In this document: positions 1 to 42,030 of the stretch, piece by piece
Numbering within the stretch: the first letter of the stretch is position 1
Layout of the letters: each line of letters starts with the position of its first letter
NCBI RefSeq assembly: GCF_001971705.1
Contig: NZ_CP019327.1
Coordinates: 1,984,001 to 2,048,000, forward strand
Source of the DNA: Natronorubrum daqingense
GTDB taxonomy: Archaea > Halobacteriota > Halobacteria > Halobacteriales > Natrialbaceae
Reading direction: 5' to 3'
Length of the DNA: 64,000 bases
Made by a program: the position numbers and the translations under genes
The notes under the pieces: generated by a model
What the model was told of the DNA's origin: nothing
Seen by the model: only the letters and a program-made list of their open reading frames with translations
Database searches by the model: none

Positions 1-1
1 A

Positions 2-2362
2 GATAAAGAAATCCTGGTTATCGCTCCCTCAAACGTTACCGAAGAGTGGATAGAAGTGTTCGAGGAATTCAACATCGACTCCGAAACAGAATTCCTCTCG
101 ATGGGGATGTTGCAGAAACAACCACTTGAAGAGGCAACCGAGGGTGATCGCGTCTTTGACTATCGTGAATACACCGACCGGTTCAGTCTGATTATCGTTG
201 ATGAGGCTCACAACTACCGGAACGACAGTAATCGGCGCAACAACCTGGAAGACATTATCCGCCAGAATAACGATTCTGACGTACTCTTAACGAGTGCTAC
301 ACCGATCAACATTAGTCCCGAAGACCTATTCTCTTTGATCGACTTATTTTATCGGGCAGGAAGAGTACAACAATTCGAGAAAGCCGGTCTGAAGTCCCAT
401 TACGAGAGCACCAGACAAGAACTGAAGCAGTTAGACAACTACGACGATCTAAGCAATAGCCTTATTCAGGATATCAAAAAGATCGAGAACGAACTGTCCA
501 TTAAGATCACATGGCGGATTATTCAAGAGGAATTCAAAGAGGATCTTCGGGAATTAGCGGGTGATGATGTTGAGTACGACGATCCCGAAATCACCGAAGA
601 AGAGTACGACTACCCCTCCCGGTATCAGAGCGAAGTTTTCGAGGAAATTGTTCCCTTCCTTGATCAACTCAATTACGAACCCTCGAAACTTTGGGACGGT
701 CAAGGGTATCAGGACTTCGATAACCTAATCTTCCGACATAAGTGGCGGTTATACAAACGGCTGGAAAGTAGCCTCAAAGCATTTCACGACAGTATCGACA
801 ACCTGCACAAGCGTTTTATTTTGTACTATGAGTCACTCAAGAGAGATATCGCGATCGAGGAAAATGACGTGTCCTCGTTGTCTACCAGTGTTGACCCACA
901 GGAAGCCGCCAATGCAACTGATTTCGAACGACTGGAAACCGTCGTCGGTACCTACCGGACTCTCGATTCAGACCTTCAGGAGAAGGTACTTACGAACCTC
1001 AAATCGGACATCGATCTGATTGGACAGATGTTAGATCGAATCAGGTCCTCGTTCGGCCAATCCTCGACCGTCCCCTATCCTGGCGACCGGAAGGTTACGC
1101 GACTACGGTCGATCATCGAAGACGAACTGACTAAAGATAAGCCAGTTGTTATATTCTCACAGTACAGTGATACGGTAGAGTACCTGTATCAAAGCCTCTC
1201 TTCAGAATTCGGGGGTGTACGACGTATTCACGGTGGTTTGTCTAAAGACAAAGAAGAGTTCGTATCCGCCTTCAACCGCGGTGAATTTGACGTCATAATA
1301 ACCACAGACATGTTAGCAGAGGGGGTCAACATTCCGCGCGCGGACGTCATCGTAAATTTCGACCTTCCGTACAATCCGATTACGCTAATTCAGCGAACTG
1401 GCCGTGCATTACGCATTACGAACCCGAAAAAGGTCGAGGTCCATAACTTCCGGCCAGCAGATTCCATTGACCGAGAGCTGGAACTTTACGAAAAATTGGA
1501 CGCTCGACTCGACACTATACTGGATATCGTGGGCCTGGACTTCATCGTCTGGTTGATGGATGAGAAGAAGGTCGAGCAATTGCACGAGGACGAACGTGAG
1601 GAGTACGTCGAGAGTTTAGCGGACTACAATGAAACAATAGCCACCTCCGACCCAAGCGAGATCGCTCCGGAGCAAACACCACCGGAGGAGACGCGGACTG
1701 ATCGTATTCTGCGGCGGGCGATTGACACCTATAACCTGACGTCCGACGATGTGACAGCAGTCTCACCATCGATACGACGGCCGATTTATACTGTGTTGAA
1801 GCCCTCCGGTCGCCAAGAGCAAAACACCGCTGATAGCGACGCTGAGGTTCGGGAATCGGTACTGTCTGACTTCGCTATCCTTGGTGAGACTGGGGGTGCC
1901 CCCTCAATTTGGACTCCGTTACACCGGAGTGTAAAAGCCGGACCGAGTGACGAGGAACTTACCGAGAGTGATATGGGTACCATCGAAGAAATCCGAGAGG
2001 AACGGCAAGAACAGTACAACCGAGAGCGAGTCACAGCTGGTCAATTAGGCCGTGCAGCTTCGCAGTTAGTTGGCCAGGTTGAGGATGCGATGGATCTGAT
2101 TTCTGACGAGGAAATGATGGAGACACTAAGTGCTGTCCGGGGACGATTGGAAGCAGACACGTACACAGTCCCCCAACGAAATAGCCTGGCGGACAACCTA
2201 ACGTCGATTCAAGAAGAGGACTACAGTTGGATGGCGAACCCCGACAACGAAATTCGCAACTCACCAGAATGGCAAACAATTATTCAAATGTCCGAGAAAG
2301 GGGCGGGCAAGTCCGGAGAAAGCGAAGTGAAGGCTGTCATCAAATACCAGAACAATGACTAG
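2..2362 (+). CDS. SNF2-like (superfamily 2) helicase, 5' part outside the window
   Basis: The frame is open from the first bases, so the N-terminus with Walker A lies to the left; the first in-window ATG/GTG (GTG at 56) is internal. Visible are a motif-Ia-like stretch (LVIAPSNVTEEW), Walker B DEAH at about 189-212, motif III (TSATP), a long acidic and charged insertion of about 300 residues, then the second RecA fold with VVIFSQYSD, ITTDMLAEGVNIPRA and the arginine finger motif QRTGRALRI near 1390-1416. The last 280 residues are helicase-specific and not recognised. Long insertions of this kind are typical of RapA/DrmD/type ISP helicases. The stop overlaps the methylase start by 8 nt, so the two are translationally coupled. 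Codon use and GC are unlike the core genes to the right, which suggests transfer. Role inferred: ATP-driven DNA translocation in a restriction/defence system. Confidence 0.93.
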   Translation, partial: DKEILVIAPSNVTEEWIEVFEEFNIDSETEFLSMGMLQKQPLEEATEGDRVFDYREYTDRFSLIIVDEAHNYRNDSNRRNNLEDIIRQNNDSDVLLTSATPINISPEDLFSLIDLFYRAGRVQQFEKAGLKSHYESTRQELKQLDNYDDLSNSLIQDIKKIENELSIKITWRIIQEEFKEDLRELAGDDVEYDDPEITEEEYDYPSRYQSEVFEEIVPFLDQLNYEPSKLWDGQGYQDFDNLIFRHKWRLYKRLESSLKAFHDSIDNLHKRFILYYESLKRDIAIEENDVSSLSTSVDPQEAANATDFERLETVVGTYRTLDSDLQEKVLTNLKSDIDLIGQMLDRIRSSFGQSSTVPYPGDRKVTRLRSIIEDELTKDKPVVIFSQYSDTVEYLYQSLSSEFGGVRRIHGGLSKDKEEFVSAFNRGEFDVIITTDMLAEGVNIPRADVIVNFDLPYNPITLIQRTGRALRITNPKKVEVHNFRPADSIDRELELYEKLDARLDTILDIVGLDFIVWLMDEKKVEQLHEDEREEYVESLADYNETIATSDPSEIAPEQTPPEETRTDRILRRAIDTYNLTSDDVTAVSPSIRRPIYTVLKPSGRQEQNTADSDAEVRESVLSDFAILGETGGAPSIWTPLHRSVKAGPSDEELTESDMGTIEEIREERQEQYNRERVTAGQLGRAASQLVGQVEDAMDLISDEEMMETLSAVRGRLEADTYTVPQRNSLADNLTSIQEEDYSWMANPDNEIRNSPEWQTIIQMSEKGAGKSGESEVKAVIKYQNND

Positions 2363-5300
2363 CGAAATGAGCTATCCGAATACGTTGGACGCGACACCGA
2401 CGGAAAACGTCAGCGGTGATTATGGGTATGAATACTTAGTGAGTGCGGGGTACTTCGAGGATCCAACATCGGACACTGTAACGTACGACTCTGACCACGA
2501 TGTCAAGTACCGATTCAGTATTGAGGGCTCTGTACGGATCGCGTACTTCGAATTCCCGATGGCAAATGTCCCTCGGGATACGCCGAAGAAGATCGCGCAG
2601 GAACTGAAGCGGAGAACCCGTCTGCAGTACTTCTGGTTCTTCGACCCGGAAACCAACCGTGTCCAAGTATTCCGTGCGTCCCGGGGGAACTTCCAGTTCA
2701 TCTACAACCCCAACATCCACACCGGTACGACGGCAGGAAGTAAACTCGATAAACTGGAACAGGTCGCTGAAGACATCAACGTCCTTTTCGACTACAAGGA
2801 CGTTGTTGACCGCTTCTACCGAGAGCTCTGGGACCACCGCTCCGACCTCGCAAGTTCCCTCACCACGAAGAGCGGATACACGCTCAGTAAGCAAGAGGAG
2901 CTCCTTTCCGCGCAACGAATCATCGACCGCTTAATTTTCCTCTACTTCCTCGTTGAACGCGGCGTCGTTATCCCCGTGAACGATTCCAAGGAGATGGTTC
3001 CAGGGAAAACAGACCGCGTGTTCAACACGCTCGTGGACGAGCACGATGACTTCTGGACGCTCCTCCAAACCATCTTCTTCGACCGGCTGAACTCCCGAAA
3101 CACCAACGGCGTTAAATTCACCGGTTCCTACTGGCTCTCCGTCCCGTACCTAAACGGCGGGCTCTTCCAACCGGAGGACCTCACCACGACGGACGGAACC
3201 ATCGTCTCCGAGGACGAAGAACTCGTCGTTGAAGACTTTGACTGGGACGCACTAATCAGCGAACTCAACGAGTACAACTGGCTTCTGGACGGACTGGAGG
3301 GAACAGACGAAGATGAAGCAGACACCGTCGGAAACCTCACCCCGGCCGTCTTGGGGTACATCTACGAGAAGTTCGTCATTTCGGTGAGCAAAGTAGGCGA
3401 TGACGTCCGGCTTAGTGATTTAGACGCTTCCGAGCGAAACGACCTGCTCTCCGAGGGTAACAGCGAGGTCGGTGCGTACTACACCGGTGAGGACATAACC
3501 GACTTCAAAGCCCGCCGTGCGCTGTGGGAAGGCCTACTGGAGAAGATTGACGAAGACCTCGACGAAGGAAAAGCACCGACAGCCCTCAATCCTGACGACC
3601 TGTACCGGGCTGGTGAGAACCAAACCGAGACAATTGAATCTAACCAGAAGGACGGCTTCGACGTCCTTTACGAGGCTTACGAAGCCTCCCCGGAAGTCTT
3701 GGAGTACCTAGATTCGAAGCTACAAGAGTTGAAAGTGTGTGATCCTGCAGTCGGGAGCGGCTCGTTTGCTCTCGCAGTAGCGAACACGCTATTCGGGTGG
3801 CGGTCGATGTGTCGACCTCACACCGATGAGTACGTACTCCGGCGACAGATCATCGCCCAGAACATCTTTGGTGTAGACATCCTCGAGGGGGCAACGGAAA
3901 TCTGTAAGCTACGGCTGTGGCTGTGGCTGATCAGCGCGACTCCAGTAGCAACAACCGAAGGTGCACTCGTAGACGAACGTGACGAGATCCCACCCTTGCC
4001 GGACATCACGTTCAATATCCGAACCGGAAACAGCCTGCTTGGGTTCACTGAAACCGCTACAGCAACCGGGAAACAGCACACTTTGGGTTCTTCTACGATG
4101 GAGAACCAACTACGACAATATGGGGAAGATGTTCGTGACTATAGAGAAGCTACTGACCCCGAGAAAGAGACGAAGCGTAAGCTCGAACGTCGCCACGACG
4201 ACCTGAAAGAAGATCTCGATGAGTGGTACGCAGGAGCTCAGAGCGATTCGAACAACAATCGTCTCTCGATTTCCGATCACGTTGATGACGTGAGTGCAGC
4301 ATGGGACAGTCTGAATGCGGCCCCACAATCCTCCACGACACTCAGCATCAAAATCCCGGACGGAATACCCGAATCCGTTGACGAATATTTGGAAAGTCAG
4401 GAGTTCACCACGTACAAATACAAGGCACGGTTGGACAGCCCGACACTCAATAAGCAGGGTGTCGAGAACATCTTCGACCAACTCCGGGAGCACTTCTCAG
4501 ACCCAGACGATTGGAGTGTTCTCATCGAACGGGAGTACGCCGGACAAGACTTCCGAGAAGACAAACTGGATGCGTGTCACTGGCCCCTCGAATTCCCGCT
4601 CGTGTTCATGAAATACGGCGGGTTCGACGTCATCATCAGCAATCCACCGTACGGGGCGTCCGTGAGCCCGGAAGCGGAACCCTTGTTGAAGAACGAGGCC
4701 AACTACGAATGCCAAGGGACGAATGACTCCTGTGAGTGGTTCTACGAACGAGCACTGGACCTCGTGCATGAACAGGGAGTCATCTCTTACATCGTCAACA
4801 AGAGCATAGCCTTCTACAGTTCGTGGTCCGACATTCGGGAACGACTGCTGGAAGAAACCGAATTCAAGCACGTCTTCGATGTCGGACTCGGGTTCGTCGG
4901 AGTGAACCTCGAAACCATTGCCATAGTCAATACTCTCGGTAGTAATGGCCGGACAAGTGTCCCAACTGTACACCGAAGTAGAGACCTTCGAAGTACGACT
5001 GCGAACCAGCCGGTCCACCTTGGGTGGGTGGACCAGGAGTTCATGATGGACTCGAAAACCATCATTTTCCGACCGATAACTGACGATCAGAGCGACGTTC
5101 TGAAACGGCTGCGCTCTCACGACCGTCGTCTTGGCGACGTAATGTCTACCGAAGACACGACGAGGCAGTTGTATATCCCGGATAGCAAGAAGAAGAAGTT
5201 GGACGATGGCGACGACCACTACATCAACAAAAACCCGTGGGTTCAGGAGTTCTACTTGGAGGACATCTGGCACAAGGACCTCAGTGACTACCAGGACTCC

Positions 5301-5972
5301 GTTACCGAATACGCCGTTCCTCGCGTCATGTTGAAGGTACTCCGTGGTACCCGACTCCGGGCGTGGATCGACGCAAATGGAGAGGTAGTGGGTACGGAGA
5401 AGCTCGTAAATGTGCCCCTCGCAGACAGCAGTCCGGAGGAGATCGCATTCGTATACGCAGCACTCAACCACCCGTGTGCCTCCTACTACCTGCAGAAAGC
5501 AATTTTCTCAGAAACAACGGAGAGTGCACGGGTGATGGACGGACAGTACTCTAAACCGATCCCGATTCCAGCGGTTCCCTCTACCATCGAAACCCCAGTG
5601 GCACATCTCGCGTGGGCACTTACGCTAGCCAAACAACTGAACCACGACTCCAACCGGGATCTTTCAGATCAAATAACAACCCTACAGACCAGCCTGAACG
5701 CAATTCTCAGCTCTCTGTACTTAGACATCCACTCAGAAACGATCAACCGTTGGTGTACTACTGTCGGCAGCGAAGGGGCAGAGACGGAACGGTTTCAGGA
5801 ATTGTTTAACCAGTTCTACACTGAACAGTTCGCCAACCGGAACGGCAGTCCGGAACAGTACTGGGACGAAATCGAAACAGTAGTGGACTCAACAGCCAAC
5901 GCTGTCTCGCAGTGGGATACTGAACAAATATTGAATTCACACGAGATGGAGATTATCGAGGAAGTCCTCTAA
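2355..5972 (+). CDS. Eco57I/type IIG-like adenine-specific DNA methyltransferase, 1,205 aa
   Basis: Start ATG overlaps the helicase stop. SAM-binding motif I is DPAVGSGSF near residue 463, followed by a motif-X/II-like FGVDILEGA segment; catalytic motif IV is NPPYG at residues 763-767, diagnostic of N6-adenine methylation. Residues 1-250 form an N-terminal region that includes a DRLIFLYFLVERG segment common in these large enzymes; residues about 830-1,160 are a target-recognition-like part ending in PIPIPAVP. The first 120 residues have the layout of a restriction-enzyme N-terminal domain (AYFEF, then LQYFWFF) but I cannot identify an intact PD-(D/E)XK triad. Size and order after the helicase resemble DISARM class 1 drmD-drmMI, or a type ISP enzyme split into two genes. 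Function inferred: self/non-self DNA modification. Confidence 0.93.
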   Translation: MTSEMSYPNTLDATPTENVSGDYGYEYLVSAGYFEDPTSDTVTYDSDHDVKYRFSIEGSVRIAYFEFPMANVPRDTPKKIAQELKRRTRLQYFWFFDPETNRVQVFRASRGNFQFIYNPNIHTGTTAGSKLDKLEQVAEDINVLFDYKDVVDRFYRELWDHRSDLASSLTTKSGYTLSKQEELLSAQRIIDRLIFLYFLVERGVVIPVNDSKEMVPGKTDRVFNTLVDEHDDFWTLLQTIFFDRLNSRNTNGVKFTGSYWLSVPYLNGGLFQPEDLTTTDGTIVSEDEELVVEDFDWDALISELNEYNWLLDGLEGTDEDEADTVGNLTPAVLGYIYEKFVISVSKVGDDVRLSDLDASERNDLLSEGNSEVGAYYTGEDITDFKARRALWEGLLEKIDEDLDEGKAPTALNPDDLYRAGENQTETIESNQKDGFDVLYEAYEASPEVLEYLDSKLQELKVCDPAVGSGSFALAVANTLFGWRSMCRPHTDEYVLRRQIIAQNIFGVDILEGATEICKLRLWLWLISATPVATTEGALVDERDEIPPLPDITFNIRTGNSLLGFTETATATGKQHTLGSSTMENQLRQYGEDVRDYREATDPEKETKRKLERRHDDLKEDLDEWYAGAQSDSNNNRLSISDHVDDVSAAWDSLNAAPQSSTTLSIKIPDGIPESVDEYLESQEFTTYKYKARLDSPTLNKQGVENIFDQLREHFSDPDDWSVLIEREYAGQDFREDKLDACHWPLEFPLVFMKYGGFDVIISNPPYGASVSPEAEPLLKNEANYECQGTNDSCEWFYERALDLVHEQGVISYIVNKSIAFYSSWSDIRERLLEETEFKHVFDVGLGFVGVNLETIAIVNTLGSNGRTSVPTVHRSRDLRSTTANQPVHLGWVDQEFMMDSKTIIFRPITDDQSDVLKRLRSHDRRLGDVMSTEDTTRQLYIPDSKKKKLDDGDDHYINKNPWVQEFYLEDIWHKDLSDYQDSVTEYAVPRVMLKVLRGTRLRAWIDANGEVVGTEKLVNVPLADSSPEEIAFVYAALNHPCASYYLQKAIFSETTESARVMDGQYSKPIPIPAVPSTIETPVAHLAWALTLAKQLNHDSNRDLSDQITTLQTSLNAILSSLYLDIHSETINRWCTTVGSEGAETERFQELFNQFYTEQFANRNGSPEQYWDEIETVVDSTANAVSQWDTEQILNSHEMEIIEEVL

Positions 5973-5987
5973 AGTCCTCGGCGGAAA

Positions 5988-6599
5988 TTAATGAAGGTCT
6001 CGAGGGTCACTACTACTTTCGCGGTTGATCTTCCGGAACCACGTGCTAAACTCATCCCAATCCATCCCATTCCCTGATTCTGGAATTGGCTGTGTGTCGA
6101 TGGGTTCAGCATCGTAATCATTGAAATCAGCGCTGAGGTCAATGTCGTTGACCTGTATGACGTGAGCCCCCTTATCTTTCGCAATGTAGTAGTAAACTTT
6201 CTCCTCCTCGTCGGTTCCTGGAGGAATTCGGATATAGGGCTGAGGGATACAGTCGTCCGGTACACCGTCTTCTGATTCAGCCTCTCTTACCGAGTAGTTT
6301 ACGAGAAAGAGCACTCCGTCAAGTGCTTTCGTCAGCTGCCACAGCGACACGAACTTTCGTCCGTTTTTGTGCCAATAATTGTTCGGATGACTTGCATGAA
6401 TGTCGAGTCGGTCCCGCCATTTGTACGGGGGATCAGAAAACGGCCCGCCGAGTTTCAGAAATTCAAATAGTACCCAACCCATTTCTGGATGGTTCAGCAA
6501 GCGTTCCACGTTAACCCCGAAGGTAGGATCATCGCCTAAAGCCTCTTTCACGAAGAGGACTTCAGTCGCGTCTTCCTTGGCCAGTTTCTTACTAGACAT
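5988..6599 (-). CDS. Uncharacterised protein convergent to the methylase (203 aa)
   Basis: I do not recognise this family. ATG at 6599 is preferred over the upstream GTG (6635) because a TATA-like box sits 25 nt upstream, giving a leaderless mRNA. The protein is soluble, with no membrane segment. The central block WRDRLDIHASHP-NYWHKNGRKFVSLW-LT-ALDGVLFLVNYS followed by a polar C-terminal half has alternating charged and hydrophobic strands as in small alpha/beta nuclease folds, but no active site can be named. It ends 15 nt from the methylase stop, in the same low-GC island, so a defence-related role (effector, nuclease or antitoxin) is possible from context only. Confidence 0.75.
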   Translation of the reverse strand: MSSKKLAKEDATEVLFVKEALGDDPTFGVNVERLLNHPEMGWVLFEFLKLGGPFSDPPYKWRDRLDIHASHPNNYWHKNGRKFVSLWQLTKALDGVLFLVNYSVREAESEDGVPDDCIPQPYIRIPPGTDEEEKVYYYIAKDKGAHVIQVNDIDLSADFNDYDAEPIDTQPIPESGNGMDWDEFSTWFRKINRESSSDPRDLH

Positions 6600-6621
6600 G
6601 TAATAGACGATGCAGGTAAAA

Positions 6622-6632
6622 CGATATAATAC
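6622..6632 (-). promoter_or_regulatory. TATA-like box for the unknown gene at 5988-6599
   Basis: On the minus strand the sequence reads GGTATTATATC, with the A/T core at 6624-6630. Its centre is about 27 nt from ATG 6599, the usual spacing for a leaderless haloarchaeal transcript, so it both supports the start and shows that the gene has its own promoter. Confidence 0.55.
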
Positions 6633-6639
6633 CACTGGC

Positions 6640-7344
6640 TGGAGAGCGGAATTGAATACACTGTGTCATAGAACGAGTCGCACAACTCCGATTCACTTTT
6701 GGACACCAGCCGTCACTGACAGGTTCCACATGTGATTGTTGGGGGGTGGTGTCGCAGTTTGAGCCGTAGCTAACAGCGCTAGTGTAAACCACGTATTGTT
6801 TTGTACGCTCGTCCCCTCCGAACTTGTAGTATCCATCAATTCCATATTGCATTATACGATTTATTCTGACTGACCAACCGATATTTCTATCGCTACAAAC
6901 CTCGCCGTGCAGCCTCTCTCATGGGTAAAACCATCTATAATCTAAATCGGGGTGCCAACAGGACACAGATCGACTCAGACACGTCGCCAACAGCACAACA
7001 GTGCAGGGTCGCCTTCGAGAAAGCTGTCGTAGACTCACGATCGGAACGGCGAGACGAATACCCGAAACGATGTACGCCTGATCGTCGACGTGTCCAGCGA
7101 TCTGGTGTACACTGACGTGCAGTGGCTACTCTACCCGTTGGTAGGGCACCCGTCACCACACACCCCCTTGATCTCCTCGTCGGTATCCCCGTCACGAGAA
7201 GACACTGTGATGACCGTCCTACCGCGGTCGACGACACCGCTCGAGCACTCGTTTCGAAACTAAATTCAGCCACCGAGAGCCATCGACTGTCAACGTCGGG
7301 GTGCGTGGCTCGATCAGGGCAGTGATGACTCGTTCTTTCTTCGT
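6640..7344. other. Non-coding boundary between island and core
   Basis: About 700 bases without a convincing gene. The left part (to roughly 6,900) keeps the low GC of the island; from about 6,950 GC rises and CTCGAG becomes frequent. Open frames here lack family-like features. No tRNA, integrase or clear direct repeat was seen that would mark the integration point. Confidence 0.6.
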
Positions 7345-39830: not shown

Positions 39831-40571
39831 GTGCGTGGCTATCTCGAGCGGAGGGAAAAGCGACTGGCCTGTGTTCGCCTGTCGGATCGTGGGTTCGGGG
39901 AGTCGTCGGCTCTCGTCGGTTCCAGATCGTGTTCACTCGGGGAACCGGGTTGGGCGAGACTCGAGCGGACGGGATTGGTCTCGAGCGGTCGCACGCGAGT
40001 GGGGTGGCCAGCGGGACTCGAGCACCGGCGCTAATCGGTCGGCGCTCGAGCGCGGGCGGTCCGGCGAGAATTCGGCTCGGACACAAAGGCGTTGTGGCCG
40101 GAAACGACGGTTTCGCGTACGATTTAGGCCATTTTGGTTGAGAGAAACCCCCTGGGAACGGGCTCGATGGGACCCGTTCAACCCGTCCTTGGAAGCTTCA
40201 CAGAGCGTTTATTCCGGGCCGACTCGCTGAGCAATCAGAAACGGTGTGTCTCGACTGAGGAATCGGTTCTCGCGACCCCATCGCTCGAGACGGGGTATTT
40301 CGACCACCTGAGGGACTTCAAGGCAGTGCTGGAACCGCTCCACGGTCGCCTGATTCTCAACTCTGAAAGTCACATCAGGTAGATAGACTTTCACGATACT
40401 GTACTTATTTATGCACTTACTGCCGACAGTTGCTCGAGCACCAACTGCGAACGGTACGGATGGCTGACGTGTGCTAACGACGAGGTGGTGTGGTAATCAC
40501 CCGCGGTGGGCACGCGAGGGACGGGTCCCTCGAGACGAAGCGTTCGGGCTGTTCCGGGTGCGTGACAAACC
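39831..40571. other. Long intergenic region before the pilins
   Basis: About 740 bases. Short open frames show no family signal. An A/T-rich sequence CTTATTTATGC at 40403-40413 could be the promoter for the pilin pair, which would leave a leader of roughly 135 nt. GC falls toward the pilin genes. Confidence 0.5.
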
Positions 40572-41033
40572 ATGGATTTGAAAGAATACCGAAACAAGTT
40601 AGTCGGCAACGAGGAGGAGCGTGCTGTCTCCCCGGTTATCGGCGTTGTATTGATGGTCGCAATTACCGTGATCCTGGCTGCCGTGATCGCAGCGTTCGTG
40701 ATGGATATGGGCGATGATATGGGTGAATCTGCACCTGCGCCATCGATGGACGTTGAGGAAGGCGCTGGCGAGAACATCACTATCAATCACGAAGGCGGAG
40801 ATAGTCTAGAAGCTGGGGATATTACAGTACAGATTGATGGTGGAGAAGTAGGTGATGATGACCTCTATGAAAGCGATAGTGAAGAGGATTCTCTAGCGAC
40901 TGACGACGAAATCTCTGCTGGAGGGCAAATTGTCGTAGATAGTGACGCTAATGAGTATGGTGAGCATGAAGGAGATGAGCTACAAGTCATTCACGAGCCA
41001 AGTGACAGCATTGTCTACGATACTGAAATATAA
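40572..41033 (+). CDS. Type IV pilin (first of a tandem pair)
   Basis: 153 aa. N-terminus [30 protein letters not shown] is the DUF1628-type prepilin signal: cleavage is expected just before SPVIG, by a PibD-type peptidase, followed by the hydrophobic assembly helix. The rest is very acidic (Asp/Glu/Gly-rich). The second pilin begins 18 nt downstream. Possible surface adhesion pilus subunit; pilus genes other than these are not in the window. Confidence 0.9.
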
Positions 41034-41051
41034 CTCAAACGCCATAAAATA

Positions 41052-41588
41052 ATGAATCTGAAAAAATGTCGTAATAAGTTGGTTGGAAGCGAGGAAGAAC
41101 GAGCAGTCTCCCCAGTCATTGGCGTTGTGTTAATGGTTGCAATCACCGTTATCCTGGCCGCCGTGATCGCGGCGTTCGTGATGGATATGGGTGACGATAT
41201 GGGAGAATCAGCGCCGAATGCGAACTTCGAATTCGAGGAAAATACGAGTTGGGACTTCGACGAAGCGGGAGAGGGTGACAGTGTTGGAACACTTAGCCAC
41301 GATGGCGGTGACGCAGTAGATACCAGTAATATCGAAATTCAGATTAGTGGTGACATTGATTCTGACATAGCCCTTAACTCGAGTAATGACTTTGGCGACG
41401 AAGACAAGGACATAAAACTCGAAACAGATGTCAATGATGATGATGATATTAGCACTGGGGCGTCGTTTGACCTCGTGAACAACGATACTGGCCAAGGCGA
41501 ATTCGATGACGAAGATGATGAATATGAGTTGACCATCATTCACGAGTCGAGTGACAGTATTATCTTCGATACTGAATTCGAGTTGTAA
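41052..41588 (+). CDS. Type IV pilin (second of a tandem pair)
   Basis: 178 aa. Same prepilin signal and helix as its neighbour (starts [26 protein letters not shown] in two-part match), with the first 57 residues almost identical in protein and close in DNA. The centre differs and is longer, while the C-terminus ([17 protein letters not shown]) resembles the other copy. A recent tandem duplication with a divergent middle. Lower GC than the core. Confidence 0.9.
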
Positions 41589-42030
41589 ACTCTCACCCGA
41601 CTTAATCGTCTTCTAATATTTTCATCCGAATATAACCCTAAAGGATGAGCACTAACGAATAACACGAAACGTCATTATTTGATTTAGCCAAGCAGTATCA
41701 TCGAACAATTACTGTAGTGAACTCCCTTCATCACCTTTCTACCAAGCCTCGGTCACTATCTTCCTCGAGTCTGCGCCGTTAGTCAAAATCTGTAGCCGTA
41801 GACGGTGAACAGAACGGTTCGCGCCCAGAAGGGCTTCTCAACCATTCGATGAGAGAACTCTGCTAACACAAGACGAACACATACCGAGAAAGAACAAGAG
41901 GTTGACATATACACCCCATGCAGAAACGGGGTCCTCGAGTCCGCTACCACTACCCAACCCAAATGCCTTATTAGCTTATCAATTTCAAGAAGACATTTAA
42001 CGTCCAGTGATACTCTCTGTAGACAACTAA
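41589..42030. other. A/T-rich intergenic region before the surface protease
   Basis: About 440 bases without a gene. Lower GC than the flanks. A short hairpin-capable sequence ACCCC...GGGGT lies near 41,916-41,933. Probably holds the pilin terminator and the promoter of the protease gene. Confidence 0.5.

Follow-up and report, generated by a model that had tools for sequence, protein, structure and literature searches.

X, a short conserved protein linked to DNA methylases in restriction-type loci, encoded in a mobile helicase-methylase cassette of Natronorubrum daqingense

What does a small gene without a Pfam family do beside a helicase gene and a DNA methylase gene in a haloarchaeon? The question is raised by a stretch of 64,000 nucleotides of the Natronorubrum daqingense genome (contig NZ_CP019327.1, positions 1,984,001 to 2,048,000), referred to here as the window. 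It opens inside a helicase gene (1-2362, plus strand), which is followed by the gene for an Eco57I-like DNA methylase of 1205 residues (2355-5972, plus strand; Pfam Eco57I, 6e-25; NPPY motif at residue 763). On the minus strand, a frame encoding a 203-residue protein, here called X, runs from an ATG at 6599 to 5988, and its end faces that of the methylase gene across 15 nt. A sequence-only reading of this DNA had described such a convergent 203-residue gene, correctly, and had taken its product for an accessory effector or an antitoxin, possibly a new defence component, of no recognised family.

X is a real gene under purifying selection. The longest stop-to-stop frame within 5973-6700 spans 225 codons, an alternative GTG start would extend X to 215 residues, and none of 1000 mononucleotide shuffles of that interval reached 203 codons (maximum 194). 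Across five haloarchaeal orthologues, dN/dS lies between 0.045 and 0.084 in seven of the ten pairs, with dS above 1.4 in four of these seven, the other three pairs being saturated and giving no value. The TATA-like element GTATTAT (6632-6626, minus strand) ends 25 nt before the ATG, and all five orthologues retain both the box and, without gaps, its spacing from the start codon, which is GTG in one of them. It is on the shuffles, the low dN/dS and the retained box and spacing that we base the status of X as a gene. The spacing would be compatible with a leaderless transcript. Both the box ahead of the ATG and the low GC common to the island, as previously described, held up on inspection: X has a GC content of 0.492, the methylase gene 0.535 and the helicase part 0.491, against 0.623 for window positions 8257-64000. 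A further low-GC stretch (0.498) lies at window positions 40001-42000, where the 2-kb windows two steps off have values of 0.62-0.66.

The helicase gene is cut by the start of the window; at full length in the genome it encodes 1086 residues, with an N-terminal HxK...GSxN motif of the PLD/HKD type followed by helicase domains. Its best PADLOC model is C3a139 'HKD+Snf2' (1.9e-37), and in Pfam its helicase domains are matched while PLD domains appear below the cut-off only. The cassette is present in two of the ten genomes of the genus, that of N. daqingense and G352, where it sits between a subtilase gene (named by eye) and a RIO kinase gene. X was not found in the other eight genomes. In seven of these, the sequence available beyond the RIO kinase gene, on the side where the cassette would sit, includes a ribosomal protein L15e or subtilase gene, both names assigned by eye; the eighth, G165, shows neither there. 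The cassette is plasmid-borne in Natronococcus (G131), and in G164 the methylase gene and X are flanked by other genes of the chromosome. Because of this patchy presence in the genus, the plasmid location and the different chromosomal site, we regard the cassette as a mobile unit rather than part of a core or housekeeping context, the setting that, according to the sequence-only reading, would have spoken against a new defence component.

Within the cassette, X is tied to the methylase and not to the helicase. This is evident from G352, the closest relative, where the helicase is internally deleted (contig L013, 5240-5944; residues 1-145 and 999-1086 remain) while the methylase and X are intact at 97% identity, and from G164, where no helicase of this kind lies within the stretch fetched around the methylase and X. 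An Eco57I-like methylase gene adjoins X in all five haloarchaeal orthologous loci. The methylase itself is matched in 17 of 391 genomes of the class: seven matches have at least 73% identity, four have 47-50% and six, which are partial, have 31-35%. X stands beside five of the first seven and is missing in G337 and G244. The methylases at 47-50% (G150, G378, G386 and G370; L053-L056) have neither X nor a helicase of this kind next to them; in L053, L055 and L056, one neighbouring gene seems by eye to recur, which suggests vertically kept orphan methylases. Contig L002 carries a full-length methylase gene, whereas its X has lost about 0.9 kb relative to L001 and is reduced to a stub. Methylases thus occur without X, and in the cellular loci examined X does not occur without a methylase, a pattern that fits a restriction enzyme and would fit a dispensable accessory too. 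An excerpt of PMC6471742 describes restriction genes as patchy in Halobacteria and cites bacterial orphan methylases lying next to degraded restriction genes.

Homologues of X occur in haloarchaea, in another archaeon (G598), in Chryseobacterium, Campylobacter, Priestia and Enterococcus, and on phage contigs. With the protein as query, X is found in six of 391 class genomes, its own included, and a nine-row profile recovers the identical six; a four-row profile finds it in two of 392 phylum genomes, again with its own, in a draw whose haloarchaeal content is not given. Plasmid records with X come from Natronococcus, Chryseobacterium and Campylobacter, followed by Priestia and two Enterococcus faecalis records, and viral contigs with X are L021, L022 and L023, followed by L065. 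Scans of the viral collection returned few relatives (none; three; two already known; one, identical to the L023 contig; and L065 together with the L023 contig). The DNA pattern for SHPNRYW picked out seven stretches, of which five are chance frames and the others L022 and, as L061, the L023 contig, and searches of phage records gave no match to window X (P0001), to P0003 or to the L022 protein. In eight Enterococcus faecium plasmid records the match to an X homologue is confined to a tail of 48 residues; in one of them (L028, 9001-9144) the tail lies near a restriction endonuclease gene, an Eco57I-type methylase gene and a DUF262 gene.

The neighbours of X were compared across 12 distinct intact non-phage loci: G000 (the N. 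daqingense genome), G352, G213, G131, G164, G250 and G598, with those of Chryseobacterium, Campylobacter, Priestia, E. faecalis and L023. The locus shared by L001 and G213 was counted once, as were the two E. faecalis records, for one of which the surroundings were read; L023, a contig of the viral collection carrying a complete restriction locus, was counted as non-phage. L002, with its eroded X, and L065, with a broken one, were left out, and a methylase gene adjoins both remains. In all 12 loci a DNA methylase gene is next door or one gene off, as would be expected of a type II restriction enzyme, and several also contain helicases. The methylases are of three unrelated kinds. Eco57I-like enzymes accompany X in each of the five haloarchaeal orthologous loci and in G598, there with one small frame separating the two genes; type III Mod genes with Res are found in G250, Chryseobacterium, E. 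faecalis and L023; and Dam/D12 methylases occur in Campylobacter and in Priestia, there together with AlwI-family enzymes. The two phage contigs differ: no methylase was recognised among the ORFs of at least 100 residues on L021 and L022 (7.0 and 7.6 kb), where X precedes a packaging gene and a RusA gene, respectively. On Enterococcus-like contig L065 (778-5820), an X homologue in two frames lies between two type III Mod genes, while in L020 the first Mod gene is truncated and X is intact. The two X sequences are about 95% identical and the adjoining Mod proteins 68.6%, with a differing central region; in this one case, the arrangement suggests swapping of Mod target domains.

These neighbourhoods bear on two further explanations. 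X could belong to the methylase as a subunit for specificity or stability, serving methylation instead of restriction, as a constant partner that is a methylase and not a helicase might indicate. We consider this unlikely, given that the close methylases of G337 and G244 remain open without X, as do more distant ones in four genomes, and that the partners of X belong to unrelated methylase classes. The antitoxin or immunity protein of the sequence-only reading fares worse still. The small size of X and its own promoter-like box would suit such a protein, and the N-terminal region of the 327-residue Priestia form matches Pfam RnlB_antitoxin with E 0.034 and 14.9 bits, below the cut-off of 27. 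That region is missing from window X, however, which matches no antitoxin family in four libraries, and inspection by eye found no recurrent toxin-like partner, the constant neighbour being the methylase; a role as antitoxin is therefore very improbable.

To which family does X belong? Neither Pfam nor PHROG matches it and NCBIfam does so at chance level only, sequence searches of PDB chains gave a best E of 0.2, and a literature search found no title or abstract start describing such a family; an excerpt of PMC10609329 had no bearing on it. The earlier statement that the family is not recognised holds for these resources but not for PADLOC, whose 324-position model PDLC03429 (REase_II, 'type II restriction enzyme') matches all four members of alignment A1 (best 2e-18), the proteins of L020 (2e-23), L023 (1e-10) and L022 (3e-16) and, among the longer members, that of L019 (4e-36). 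Window X itself is matched weakly, at 4e-4 over 35 residues. What is shared is a C-terminal domain common to archaeal, bacterial and phage members, with an adjoining methylase in the non-phage loci. At 203 residues, X falls short of the full length of about 324: it begins at this domain, lacks the N-terminal region of some 100 residues present in the forms of 318-327 residues, and sits in a helicase-methylase cassette. Among the bacterial members Chryseobacterium, too, has a short form, of 145 residues. The related family is thus already modelled in PADLOC, and the short form in such a cassette is new. The sequence-only reading is partly borne out: homologues keep company with methylases and, at several loci, with helicases, and the family is only in part unrecognised. 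We did not accept the idea that the N-terminal part of the 318-327-residue forms is a second copy of the domain: in an hmmsearch of 1000 sequences (two real, 998 shuffled) the Priestia part ranked third and the Enterococcus part was absent among the 22 matches listed, and hhalign gave P 0.015 over 23 columns.

In all 11 homologues compared, residues S3, K4, D10, E46, L48, P72, Y75, K82, L86, L97, L99, V100, Y102, V150 and N192 are invariant. Residue 32 is aspartate in nine and glutamate in two, the window clade having glutamate, and E19 is present in nine and missing in two. The codons of E19, E32, E46 and K82 lie at 6545-6543, 6506-6504, 6464-6462 and 6356-6354, respectively, on the minus strand. 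Assigned by order and spacing, residue 32 and E46 correspond in 11/11 to the carboxylates of PD-(D/E)XK motifs II and III, while the motif III lysine (ExK) is replaced by L48 throughout. K82, in the next helix, is a candidate stand-in for that lysine, mapped by order and spacing only. For the Holliday junction enzyme Hjc, an excerpt of PMC1913061 gives the motifs as E9, D33, E46 and K48, and D61, and notes that several PD-(D/E)XK families have the motif III lysine shifted into the following helix. The spacing of D33 and E46 in Hjc is similar to that of D/E32 and E46 in X; unlike Hjc, X lacks the motif III lysine and has its conserved lysine one helix later.

The predicted model of window X (pLDDT 42) was not used, and structural comparison relied on the phage member from L022 (pLDDT 71), in which residues 41-140 have block means of 71-94 and a confident order b-b-a-b-b-b-a. 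In this model the counterpart of E46 falls in the second confident strand and that of K82 in the first long helix. Foldseek against the PDB gave 718 matches to E 10, none at or below 0.001 (best 0.049); the best 50 include HincII 26 times, bunyavirus cap-snatching endonuclease six times and Hjc five times, with TM-scores of about 0.2-0.4. There is no YTH domain among these 50, which is no evidence against a YTH fold. The 50 entries listed in a second comparison (Z 4.6-6.4) comprise 22 YTH domains, 14 DHH-type phosphoesterases or relatives, nine Hjc and five RecU/PrfA, and the best scores are about tied (DHH 6.4, Hjc 6.2, YTH 5.4); the Hjc match extends over 98 residues at 3.6 A and is not significant. 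These groups were assigned by entry titles, Cdc45 being counted as a relative of the DHH proteins. A search of BFVD gave one nameless match (E 4.8e-4), below which are entries named 'endonuclease', VRR-NUC, PD-(D/E)XK nuclease and UL24. Taken together, these comparisons of the predicted L022 model lean towards a nuclease as the candidate fold.

From its gene neighbours we infer a defence role for X, and because of the methylase beside it in 12/12 loci, the one-way dependence, the PDLC03429 matches and the invariance of E46 and K82, we favour a restriction-type nuclease subunit working with the adjacent methylase, a proposal to which we give an even chance. The methylase would mark self DNA. 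X would act as a nuclease that depends on metal ions, its PD-(D/E)XK-like site being formed by D/E32, E46 and possibly E19, with K82 contributed by the following helix. It would attack unmarked DNA, partnered either by just the methylase or by the methylase and the HKD helicase. Its fold and its cutting are putative, as is the choice of target by the methylase. Several findings argue against a nuclease: the canonical lysine is leucine in every homologue and E19 is missing in two; X occurs in systems that own a nuclease, namely type III Res or AlwI-type enzymes; the PDB comparison gave no significant match, and most of its 37 nuclease entries among the best 50 are HincII; and X is present on two phage contigs with no recognised methylase among their ORFs.

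Some of the same observations suit a non-cutting adaptor or reader of modified bases, which would bind adenine methylases or methylated DNA and so tune recognition or gate restriction by the HKD helicase, type III Res or AlwI-type enzyme. Such a protein could be expected to accompany complete restriction systems with their own nuclease and to do without the ExK lysine, and domains that read methyl-adenine (YTH) make up 22 of the 50 entries listed in the second comparison, at Z 4.6-5.4. In archaeon G598 the surroundings of X and the Eco57I-like methylase gene include an EVE-domain gene (L026, 8117-8563). Yet neither E46 nor K82 varies, which is what a catalytic site would demand. In Campylobacter, moreover, PADLOC names no restriction enzyme among the four neighbours tested, the methylase included (an annotated 3'-5' exonuclease lies farther from X), and in G164 none was noticed by eye beside the methylase-X pair, one neighbour of which resembles a DHH-family protein. 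A reader or adaptor is the main rival to the nuclease and in our view the less probable account. A bolder form of the nuclease proposal, which we regard as doubtful, is that X is a portable restriction module: a very small protein of nuclease fold, its lysine displaced into the helix, would plug into three unrelated methylase classes and borrow their sequence recognition. Archaeal, bacterial and phage systems of the Eco57I-like, type III and Dam types would then share one part.

Among the known systems closest to X are type III systems that, according to an excerpt of PMC8259958, have an additional SF2 helicase-like gene 5' of mod; its role is unclear, and it is found close to these systems in more than 500 genomes. 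X likewise occurs in Mod and Res loci, and in L023 the entire helicase is matched by PADLOC C3a139 (413 bits) and is probably the extra helicase of that study, whose excerpt does not mention a small gene. In contrast to type III loci, the window has an Eco57I-like methylase with no Mod or Res adjoining. The type-2 BREX-related systems (DUF499/Hma) of PMC12839542, described in the excerpt as HKD-helicase and methylase systems with DUF499, share with the window an HKD-SNF2 helicase and an adenine-type methylase; no component named in that excerpt equals X, and DUF499 (PF04465) has no match in the N. daqingense genome, which sets the cassette apart from BREX-related type 2 (Hma). As for DISARM, the window part of the helicase scores 109 bits with DrmD, whose curated cut-off is 610. 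We conclude that X is genuine and conserved, an accessory of restriction-type loci linked to their methylases. No Pfam family covers this short protein, which recurs beside unrelated methylase classes in both prokaryotic domains. If X cuts, it would explain how a methylase and one small gene could restrict DNA, and the role of the extra gene in some type III systems; if it reads methylation, it would be a general sensor. On either reading, several seemingly solitary methylases would become testable as systems.

In Haloarchaeobius (L001, 2318-3363), a homologue of the TATA-binding protein (Pfam TBP) and a 168-residue gene without a Pfam match lie beside X, and frames that by eye are similar to both occupy the same place in L002.
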